Of a stretch of 33,128 nt of DNA, positions 4,519-8,412 are shown in pieces. The notes beneath the pieces were generated by a model. That model was given only the letters and a program-made list of their open reading frames with translations, was not told the origin of the DNA and searched no databases. A program made the position numbers and the translations under genes. Every line of letters begins with the position of its first letter. Position 1 is the first letter of the stretch. The stretch is from the IMG/VR virus record IMGVR_UViG_3300030060_000247, positions 1-33,128 of that record, one strand, 5' to 3'. Source of the DNA: a virus.

Positions 4519-4728
4519 ATGAACAACGTGATGACATGCAACGCAGACTGCAAACGCGCTGGCTGGGTTGAATACTTTGGCGAGTGCGACTTGCCCTGGC
4601 TGGACATTCATATCTCAGTCGCACCAGGCACAGACCTTGATGACGTGATCACTGCCTTTTGCCATGACGACCAAGAGATGATCCGTATCAATGGCTGGAA
4701 CTTCACATTTGAAAGAATCGGAGCGTAA
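4519..4728 (+). CDS. Early small protein, unknown
   Basis: A 69-aa protein of unrecognised family and first gene of the early block. It starts at ATG 4519 directly behind AAGAAAGGATCAAACAA, the leader that recurs before most genes here. It has three cysteines near the N-terminus (MTCNADCKR and GECDLPW) that could form a metal site, then a mixed alpha/beta stretch (IHISVAPGTDLDDVITAFC) and an aromatic C-terminus. It is neutral to acidic with no membrane segment. The next gene starts 2 bp after its stop. Function unknown. Confidence 0.75.
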   Translation: MNNVMTCNADCKRAGWVEYFGECDLPWLDIHISVAPGTDLDDVITAFCHDDQEMIRINGWNFTFERIGA

Positions 4729-5695: not shown

Positions 5696-5899
5696 ATGGA
5701 AAACTATGTAGCAGATAAGCTAATCAAAATTTTAGAGGGCATCAAAGACTGTAATTATACAATGCAAATGGATGACCCATCCCAAAACCCAGACTTTGAA
5801 AAAGATTGGTATAGACCAGCAGAGAGAAAGCAGAGCCACTTGGTAGAAAAACTTATAAACACAATAAAAGAGGATGTGGACAGCATCGCTTGGAAATAG
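5696..5899 (+). CDS. Early small protein, unknown
   Basis: A 67-aa protein with ATG at 5696, placed 7 bp after GGAGGG (5683-5688). A reading from a TTG at 5681 is possible but would bury that site. The sequence is helical and polar: MENYVADKLIKILEGIKDC, a central QMDDPSQNPDFEKDWYRP loop, and a C-terminal helix with SHLVEKLINTIKEDVDSIAWK. I recognise no domain. A strong hairpin (5912-5940) follows within 15 bp of its stop. Confidence 0.68.
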   Translation: MENYVADKLIKILEGIKDCNYTMQMDDPSQNPDFEKDWYRPAERKQSHLVEKLINTIKEDVDSIAWK

Positions 5900-5911
5900 T
5901 CAACAACCCTA

Positions 5912-5940
5912 CCCATTGGCGGTTACATGCCGCCAGTGGG
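5912..5940 (+). terminator. Strong intergenic hairpin (11-bp stem)
   Basis: CCCATTGGCGG (5912-5922) pairs with CCGCCAGTGGG (5930-5940) around a 7-base loop; all pairs are Watson-Crick except one G-T. No T-run follows, so it is not a classic rho-independent terminator. It may be an RNA-processing or stability element, or a factor-dependent pause site. It sits between two early genes and about 30 bp before the next standard leader. Confidence 0.6.
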
Positions 5941-5981
5941 CCTCAAACCGCCAGCAATGGCATGTTAAGAAAGGATCAACA

Positions 5982-6296
5982 ATGAACACTATTAAGATTG
6001 GCAAGGTTTTCTACGATGACCATTGTGAGCGCGACTTGATTGCACCGACAATCATTCGCCAAACTAAGACTCACTATTTTATTGATGGCACAGACAACGA
6101 GGCTCTGCGTGAGCTGCTGAGTGATGCTAATCACTACAAGGAACACTCTTGGTTTGACACTAATTATTTTGGTCTTTGTAGGTCTGCTGCTAGGACATAT
6201 GAAGCCATTTGCAAGCACCTAGAAAGCATTGATGCAGAGGATGTAGTCAATACTCCAAAGCTATATGTGAAGAAACACAATAGGCGCGGATATTAG
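5982..6296 (+). CDS. Early protein, unknown
   Basis: A 104-aa protein starting at ATG 5982, right behind AAGAAAGGATCAACA. A longer in-frame reading from 5874 crosses the hairpin and the ribosome site and is rejected. The sequence begins MNTIKIGKVFYDDH, has a strand-rich first half (IIRQTKTHYFIDGT), a helix (EALRELLSDANHY), and a C-terminal helix (RSAARTYEAICKHLESI) with a basic tail (VKKHNRRGY). I do not recognise the family; it could be a small nucleic-acid- or protein-binding early product. Confidence 0.75.
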   Translation: MNTIKIGKVFYDDHCERDLIAPTIIRQTKTHYFIDGTDNEALRELLSDANHYKEHSWFDTNYFGLCRSAARTYEAICKHLESIDAEDVVNTPKLYVKKHNRRGY

Positions 6297-6323: not shown

Positions 6324-6346
6324 CAACAGCAAGAAAGGATCTAACA

Positions 6347-6805
6347 ATGTATTCAGTAAACATGGCAGGAATTTATCACATCCAAAAATGGATTGATGAA
6401 AACCAAGACTGCAATCCAAAGGTTTTTGATTTGTGGGCAAATGGCATCGCTTCAGAAATAAATCGCTGCGCGAGTCTAGACGATGACTTGCAGAGAAATG
6501 GTGAGTTTATTTATGAGGTTGGGCTACGTGACGCGCGTGGTTACGTCATGACAATATCGCTTGATGAAAGTCACTTCAATTCAGAGAGGGCAGAACAATT
6601 AGCAAGAAAGGATCAAACAATGGCTAAACAATGGGATGTAAGGATTCGTGCAACGGTTACGAAAACCATTCGCGTAACAGCAAAAACAGAAGATAATGCG
6701 TGGAATTTGGCGCATGAAATTTTTAGCGTTGGTTCTACAGACGATGCAGAAGACTATGAACAGGACACAGTATTCATAGAAAAGGTAGAGAGGGCAGAAC
6801 AATGA
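6347..6805 (+). CDS. Early protein, apparent stop-loss fusion of two small genes
   Basis: The open frame gives 152 aa from ATG 6347 (leader AAGAAAGGATCTAACA). It looks like two proteins joined. Residues 1-83 (MYSVNMAGIYHIQKW to ESHFNSERAEQ) are unrecognised. The rest begins at an internal Met (ATG 6620) with its own perfect AAGAAAGGATCAAACA leader and reads MAKQWDVRIRATVTKTIRV, resembling the DpnD/PcfM-like small family. The joint lies in a 28-nt repeat: CAATTAGC here (6597-6604), versus CAATGAGC at the end of this same gene, where TGA is the stop. A single T for G at 6600 would therefore have removed the first gene's stop. Both the fusion and a 61-aa internal product are plausible. Confidence 0.7.
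   Translation: MYSVNMAGIYHIQKWIDENQDCNPKVFDLWANGIASEINRCASLDDDLQRNGEFIYEVGLRDARGYVMTISLDESHFNSERAEQLARKDQTMAKQWDVRIRATVTKTIRVTAKTEDNAWNLAHEIFSVGSTDDAEDYEQDTVFIEKVERAEQ
6583..6610 (+). repeat. 28-nt direct repeat, copy 1 (stop lost)
   Basis: Matches 6787-6814 in 27 of 28 positions. The only difference is T6600 against G6804. In copy 2 that G makes both the TGA stop of the upstream frame and the ATG of the next gene; copy 1 has neither. The repeat contains the first part of the early leader (AGCAAGAAAG). Confidence 0.85.
6620..6805 (+). CDS. Possible internal translation start: DpnD/PcfM-like small protein
   Basis: This is an in-frame reading from ATG 6620, giving 61 aa, inside the longer fusion gene. 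It is supported by the full early leader AAGAAAGGATCAAACA immediately upstream, as good as any other start in the block. The protein has a strand-rich start (KQWDVRIRATVTKTIRVTAK), a helix (EDNAWNLAHEIF) and an acidic C-terminus (DDAEDYEQDTVFIEKVE). The pattern resembles small DpnD/PcfM-type proteins (from memory, weak). It probably is the ancestral stand-alone gene. Whether it is still made separately cannot be seen from sequence alone. Confidence 0.5.
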   Translation: MAKQWDVRIRATVTKTIRVTAKTEDNAWNLAHEIFSVGSTDDAEDYEQDTVFIEKVERAEQ

Positions 6806-6814
6806 GCAAGAAAG
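6787..6814 (+). repeat. 28-nt direct repeat, copy 2 (stop and start intact)
   Basis: This is the partner of 6583-6610. Here the repeat encodes the end of one gene (CAA TGA) and the overlapping start of the next (ATG at 6802). Confidence 0.85.
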
Positions 6815-7089
6815 TATGGCACATAAGCTACATTTCAGCAATGGTCGGACCATGCGTAGCGACTACCGATTGCGGTATGATGGCATGGGGAAATAGTGGT
6901 TATTCAGTGAGGTTATTGGATATGGGCAACGATGGCGAAAAACTATTGTTGCACATAGATCCAAAACATACCGATGAATTGAAGATCTACCAGCTGGTAG
7001 GCTACGCGGTAAACTGTGATCTGCCCTATTCAATTACAGAGTGGGCAGAGTTTATGGAAGATGAACAGCAAGAAATAGGCAACGCCTAA
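6802..7089 (+). CDS. Early protein, unknown
   Basis: A 95-aa protein whose ATG overlaps the preceding stop as ATGA, inside the 28-nt repeat, so it is translationally coupled. It starts MSKKVWHISYISAMVGP and contains strand-rich segments (YSVRLLDMGNDGEKLLLHID) and an acidic C-terminus (EFMEDEQQEIGNA). The N-terminal half has GPCVATTDCGMMAWGNSG, with two cysteines. I recognise no family. Unlike its neighbours it lacks a complete AAGGATCAA leader, because the repeat here continues as AAAGTATGG instead of AAAGGATC. Confidence 0.72.
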   Translation: MSKKVWHISYISAMVGPCVATTDCGMMAWGNSGYSVRLLDMGNDGEKLLLHIDPKHTDELKIYQLVGYAVNCDLPYSITEWAEFMEDEQQEIGNA

Positions 7090-7107
7090 CAGAGAAAGGA
7101 TCAAATC

Positions 7108-7419
7108 ATGTCTAGTAATTACAAAATAGACCTCAATAGCATCACATTCGATGCTTATATAGAAATAGACAAATTAGACAAAACTTTTGTCGGGACTGCC
7201 AACTATCTTGGCTTGGCTTACTTCTGGCACATGGAATACAAGCATTATCTGCGAGACTGCACGATTGCAAAGCGCAGGAAGATTCACAAAAAGTGGTTGG
7301 ACGCTGGCCTAGATTTGGTTGGCGTAAGTGATAGGCATCTTAGCATTGTCATAGACGTACTAGATGGCGTTACTTTAGATTCTGGCTGCAAAGTCACCAG
7401 AGATGGACTTACTTGGTAA
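7108..7419 (+). CDS. Early protein, unknown
   Basis: A 103-aa protein starting at ATG 7108 behind AGAGAAAGGATCAAATC. It begins MSSNYKIDLNSITFDAYIE, has a helix with aromatic residues (GLAYFWHMEYKHYLRD), a basic patch (AKRRKIHKKWLDAGL), and ends DGLTW. The basic helix might contact nucleic acid, but no known motif is visible. It has no signal or membrane segment. Function unknown. Confidence 0.72.
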   Translation: MSSNYKIDLNSITFDAYIEIDKLDKTFVGTANYLGLAYFWHMEYKHYLRDCTIAKRRKIHKKWLDAGLDLVGVSDRHLSIVIDVLDGVTLDSGCKVTRDGLTW

Positions 7420-7436
7420 AAGAGAAAGGATCAACA

Positions 7437-8301: not shown

Positions 8302-8412
8302 ATGAAAACACAATGTTATAACACAATGTATACACTTACATACAATGTTATAACACAATGTCTACACTTACAATGTAGACACTTTTTTTATTTAAAAATA
8401 ATTAATTGTTAA
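8302..8412 (+). CDS. Possible 36-aa leader ORF over the repeats
   Basis: ATG 8302 follows TAGGGAGGAAT, an excellent Shine-Dalgarno. The frame runs 36 codons (MKTQCYNTMYTLTY onward) to TAA at 8410-8412, entirely over the repeated and AT-rich DNA. The protein is cysteine-rich (5 Cys) with no recognisable feature. The strong ribosome site just after a terminator is odd. It could be a decayed gene end or a leader peptide, and coding is uncertain because the repeats dictate the sequence. Confidence 0.25.
   Translation: MKTQCYNTMYTLTYNVITQCLHLQCRHFFYLKIINC
8310..8372. repeat. Two tandem 31-bp iteron-like repeats
   Basis: 8310-8340 and 8342-8372 are identical except for one base (A8330 versus C8362) and are separated by a single T. 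Each carries two ACAATGT words, and a fifth begins at 8370. An AT-rich stretch (8382-8412) follows directly. The pattern (tandem repeats beside an AT-rich segment) is what iteron origins and regulator arrays look like. Which of the two it is cannot be decided here. Confidence 0.75.
8359..8390 (+). terminator. Second hairpin with T-run
   Basis: TGTCTACA (8359-8366) pairs perfectly with TGTAGACA (8374-8381) over a 7-base loop, followed by CTTTTTTTA. It has the form of a rho-independent terminator reading rightward, although the stem is AT-rich. It overlaps the second 31-bp repeat, so it may instead be part of a protein-binding array. Confidence 0.5.

Follow-up and report, generated by a model that had tools for sequence, protein, structure and literature searches.

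How can two small phage genes come to share one reading frame while the downstream one keeps what looks like a complete ribosome site of its own? The question is raised by a locus in the IMG/VR virus record IMGVR_UViG_3300030060_000247, the whole of which (33,128 bases in one contig, hereafter the window) was analysed. The window comes from a marine phage and has a G+C content of about 45%; its large terminase shares about 50% identity with the terminases of HTVC010P-like Pelagibacter phages. Searches of the phage collection and of genome contigs found no relatives, and hence gave no host or prophage context. Searches for tRNAs and against Rfam returned nothing. The two contig ends (1-604 and 32525-33128) share a 604-nt overlap of 92.5% identity, the differences being scattered, and the head-tail connector gene is partly duplicated there, in two versions. 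This overlap probably reflects a circular or redundant genome and an assembly from more than one strain; given the 92.5% figure, the contig may be a mixture of strains.

Table 1. Features of the fused locus and its linkers, in window coordinates.
Feature	Positions	Strand	Remarks
Start linker of gene A	6328-6349	+	95% identity (21/22) with the 6601-6622 linker
Fused ORF, 152 aa	6347-6805	+	unique in comparison with 36 relatives
Gene A (upstream part)	6347-6598	+	from alignment; 24 distinct relatives; conserved to the HF codons 76-77 (6572-6577)
Repeat copy 1	6583-6610	+	17-nt linker (6583-6599) followed by the opening 11 nt of the second linker
Second linker, TAGCAAGAAAGGATCAAACAATG	6600-6622	+	AAAGGA at 6607-6612, ATG at 6620-6622; identical 23-mer in L034
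Linker TAG	6600-6602	+	one base outside the frame of gene A; stop of gene A in some relatives
DpnD/PcfM-like small protein, 61 aa	6620-6805	+	57-59% identity over the matched part to proteins of unrelated contigs L028-L030
Repeat copy 2	6787-6814	+	ribosome-site linker and first codons of the next gene
ATGA overlap	6802-6805	+	the fused frame stops and the next gene starts here
Next gene (MSKKVW..., 95 aa)	6802-7089	+	94.6% DNA identity to L031 from 6798

A conserved gene without its usual stop

The initial annotation described a frame that reads through from an upstream protein into a small downstream protein, and the sequence bears this out: the frame beginning at ATG 6347 stays open to the TGA at 6803-6805, passing through an internal ribosome site and the ATG at 6620. 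The upstream part, here called gene A, is a real conserved gene that normally ends near the joint, as had been supposed. Its core of 77 conserved residues, ending in HF, forms the beginning of the fused frame, and alignment with 16 relatives gives 56-88% identity and 30 invariant columns. Gene A was found in 36 related contigs, which represent 24 distinct ORFs and 21 junction classes. In all 36, it is 76-83 aa long and terminates 2-7 residues past HF with TAA, TAG or TGA; only in the window is this stop missing, and the frame runs on to 152 aa. The fusion is thus specific to this contig, with the long form present in 0/36 relatives, and a fusion that is the norm of the family is ruled out. The fused frame is confirmed as real in the consensus.

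What follows gene A is highly variable, with about 20-22 unlike genes occupying this position among the relatives. In many of them, the next ATG lies in the frame of gene A, with a single stop between the two. Compared with L008, gene A of the window lacks about 13 nt between HF and the AGAGAGGGC linker, and because of this shortened 3′ end its usual stop is gone. The residues SERAEQ that follow HFN in the fused frame are largely translated linker. A PHROGs search with the fused frame and its parts gave no useful match. A screen of 385 candidates from the loci at hand gave seven other fused frames with two ribosome-site starts; judged by eye only, none of them resembles a junction of these linkers.

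A composite repeat at the joint

The annotation also reported a 28-nt direct repeat with a single difference, and both the sequence and a repeat search agree. Copy 1 reads AGAGAGGGCAGAACAAT-T-AGCAAGAAAG and copy 2 reads AGAGAGGGCAGAACAAT-G-AGCAAGAAAG, the copies being spaced by 204 and differing only at T6600 versus G6804. By our own estimate, the chance of a 28-nt match with one mismatch in 33 kb is about 1e-6, and a chance origin is ruled out for the 17-nt linker part. The 28-nt unit occurs in no contig besides the window.

On the sequence, the match is a composite whose left 17 nt and right 11 nt differ in nature. The left part, AGAGAGGGCAGAACAAT, is the linker with the ribosome site of the 6802 gene and is common to both places; it resembles the linkers that follow gene A in relatives (AGAGAGGGCAAATCATG, AGAGAGGGCAACAAAATG). 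Within the family, the exact 17-mer is confined to the two places in the window, and its other matches lie in contigs that are apparently unrelated. The right 11 nt are the start of the second linker at 6600 but the first codons of the next gene at 6804, where relatives carry ATGAG[C/T]AAGAAGGC. This right-hand part of the match is largely a resemblance between linker and codons. Most simply, the repeat is a trace of the DpnD-like gene having been inserted between gene A and the 6802 gene. Its copies lie 204 bp, or 68 codons, apart, so that recombination between them with retention of the G would leave gene A ending in ERAEQ at a TGA overlapping the following start, an overlap that L031 and L032 also show ahead of the homologous gene.

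The nature of T6600 follows from the second linker, of which it is the first base. Over 23/23 nt, this linker is identical to one in the related phage L034, where it stands before another gene; L085 has a near form of it, with nearly the same preceding sequence and a different gene after. In 29 other family linkers of the form N-AGCA-purines-GG...ATG, taken from distinct contexts that are not all independent, base N is T in 24/29, A in 4/29, C in 1/29 and G in 0/29. The TAG that begins with this T is the stop of gene A itself in L035, L036, L040, L061 and L063. At the joint of the window, the bases 6598-6602 read ATTAG and hold no ATG and no in-frame stop. Read in the frame of its own ATG, the second linker is free of stops and gives L-A-R-K-D-Q-T-M, exactly the stretch that connects the halves of the fused protein.

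Similar linkers precede several unrelated genes of the window, with starts at 4519, 5982, 6347, 6620, 7108 and 7437, and the same type apparently serves as the ribosome site of 4519, 5982, 6347, 7108 and 7437.

The downstream gene and its possible products

The label "DpnD/PcfM-like" given to the small protein comes only from a match to the Pfam family PF14207 that falls below the threshold (16.5 bits, E 0.0089 for 6620-6802, against a gathering score of 25 bits). The nearest relatives of the 61-aa protein score 17.5 and 24.3 bits against the same family. A paper search turned up nothing that treats DpnD together with PcfM. In the context it has in the window, the DpnD-like gene occurs in no other contig.

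The claim that this gene keeps its own full ribosome site is upheld by a complete linker of the type used elsewhere in the window, with the SD-like AAAGGA 7 nt ahead of the ATG. No unusual structure is predicted over the 6620 start. Initiation at 6347 would be expected to give the 152-aa fused protein, because there is no stop between the halves. Given the complete linker and the lack of unusual predicted structure, the internal start is also likely to yield the free 61-aa protein.

Linkers as probable places of gene exchange

L031 is 94.6% identical to the window over 6798-7429 and carries a quite different gene before 6798; L032 and L033 similarly have the 6802 gene behind other genes, with homology beginning at 6797-6798. 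L007/L036 have no DpnD-like gene at this place, and a 39% homologue of the 6802 gene comes straight after gene A. Similarity to relatives tends to begin or end at boundary sequences, as in the L031 block. Between 4200 and 8300, 23 of the 42 homology-block ends fall in linker zones against a random expectation of 5.5, or 5.3 after circular shifts, an excess that is partly expected since genes align better than the spaces between them, which weakens the statistic. Judging from these block ends, the linkers are likely to be places of gene exchange.

The segment 6604-6634, which comprises the linker and the first five codons (MAKQW), matches L031 1393-1423 at 93.5%, and in L031 it begins a protein (MAKQWWEMWF...) different from the DpnD-like one. 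Exchange at linkers may therefore include the first codons.

At 8310-8372, downstream of the early genes, lie two 31-nt direct repeats, ACAATGTTATAACACAATGTNTACACTTACA (97%, spacing 32), and from 8310 or 8341 up to 8500 the DNA shares about 95% identity with L031 and L032; these repeats are perhaps an operator or origin. In the intergenic stretch 5893-5985, inverted-repeat parts (CCCATTGGCGG...CCGCCAGTGGG) lie before a start linker. L031, L032 and L033 carry this stretch too, there in front of different genes, which recalls extended start-associated sequences.

How the junction arose

These findings lead to a model, to which we assign a probability of about 0.7, in which the joint is a junction of two start linkers, that is, a mosaic junction in a variable early region. 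In this region, small genes are set apart by short linkers that contain a ribosome site and often a stop codon, and that probably act as places of gene exchange between these phages. The DpnD-like gene, with its own linker (6600-6622), would have been inserted in front of the 6802 gene and behind gene A, leaving the insert flanked on both sides by the 17-nt linker that belongs to the 6802 gene. Lacking its own stop, gene A reads through the first linker and meets the TAG of the second linker out of frame, so that the two genes share one frame. The stop would have been lost, or would never have formed in frame, when the linkers were joined, presumably by homologous or microhomology-driven recombination. 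The sequence, its uniqueness, the linker identity and the block boundaries are direct observations; we infer the order of events, insertion versus loss and the exact crossover, as no contig shows the immediate ancestor. Such a mechanism would be an ordinary one, and most likely no point mutation was involved.

A point mutation is what the initial annotation had proposed: a 28-nt unit with ATGA would have been duplicated around the DpnD-like gene, copy 1 later losing its stop by a G to T change at 6600. The 28-nt match with its single mismatch fits this proposal, as does the fact that a G at 6600 would end gene A in ERAEQ-stop, the same arrangement as at the 6802 start. The stop loss is nevertheless improbable, because to the right of 6600 copy 1 agrees with the family linker, as carried by L034, at 23/23 nt and copy 2 at only 10/11, and because T is the usual base of these linkers and G is never seen. 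The homologues, which were to be checked for a TGA at the joint, have none there, their stops (TAA, TAG, TGA) lying at several other places.

A broader proposal, also doubtful, is that linker joining routinely makes in-frame fusions, each with a free downstream form, this locus being one of them before loss or fixation and possibly tethering partners. It starts from linkers that are open in the frame of the downstream ATG, while the internal ribosome site survives.

It is rather unlikely that the joint is a sequencing or assembly artefact or the consensus of mixed strains, in which case the real genomes would have the TAG in frame or the two sides would be wrongly joined. With the frame off by one base, one indel would be enough to bring back an ordinary stop; the overlapping contig ends are only 92.5% identical; and no second contig crosses the joint. 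Indel errors are rare in a short-read consensus, and the joint has no long homopolymer. The exact stretches shared at the joint, of 17 and 10 nt, are short for an assembly mis-join.

A fusion selected because gene A and DpnD-like proteins are partners, with both a tethered and a free 61-aa form being useful, appears least probable of all. The internal linker is intact, and gene A has a DpnD-like gene immediately behind it in three unlike lineages (the window, L038/L003 and L044/L009). Against this, such genes make up 3 of about 22 different genes in that position, with weak Pfam matches; in L013/L042, the DpnD-like gene lies one gene further off; the seven joining residues are plain translated linker; the structure model of the fused protein is of low confidence (mean pLDDT 50); and one contig is too few for a test of selection. 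Among 58 representative small proteins, DpnD-like matches numbered three, with weak scores; the arrangement hints at a partnership, with too few cases (3/58) to count.

Under the junction of two start linkers, the locus shows, base by base, how small phage genes can become fused when they are swapped at ribosome-site linkers. As the linkers carry a stop, the frame at the junction would decide whether two genes or one result. Because gene A and the next start are often in frame with a single stop between them, many phages would be just a small step from such a fusion. Should the fused protein be made, this could be a cheap route to new multidomain proteins that keeps the free downstream product.

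Comparison with known systems

Gene 68 of the mycobacteriophage Island3 has its 3′ end in common with its upstream neighbour and is absent from Brujita, and the 3′ repeat shared by genes 67 and 68 was read as recombination between repeats (PMC3029335). As here, a small gene is present in one phage and missing from a relative, and a repeat is shared with the upstream neighbour. In Island3, the repeat covers about 60 bp of coding end and the genes remain separate, whereas in the window it covers 17-28 nt centred on a linker with a ribosome site, the upstream stop lying out of frame.

The SAS/ESAS of Cluster K mycobacteriophages are short repeated sequences before the starts of many unrelated small genes (PMC3203893), and the window likewise has a short repeated sequence immediately 5′ of the starts of unlike genes. 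The phages are unrelated and the sequences differ, being GGGATAGGAGCCC in Cluster K and of the types AGAAAGGATCAA-ATG or AGAGAGGGC-ATG in the window, where the linkers, unlike those sequences, often contain the upstream stop. For phage mosaicism, short boundary sequences have also been put forward as sites of recombination (see the discussion in PMC3029335). The likeness lies in short conserved sequences at gene borders where unlike genes are exchanged; recombination at them in the window is deduced from the ends of homology blocks.

Overlapping ATGA stop/start pairs with translational coupling (PMC6728339) offer a further parallel. The overlap at 6802-6805 is of this kind, and so are the stops that precede the homologous gene in L031 and L032; the joint at 6598-6602 differs from such pairs, having neither an ATG nor an in-frame stop. 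The closest precedents are Island3 67/68 and the start-associated sequences, to which the present locus adds the twist of a linker stop that is out of frame.
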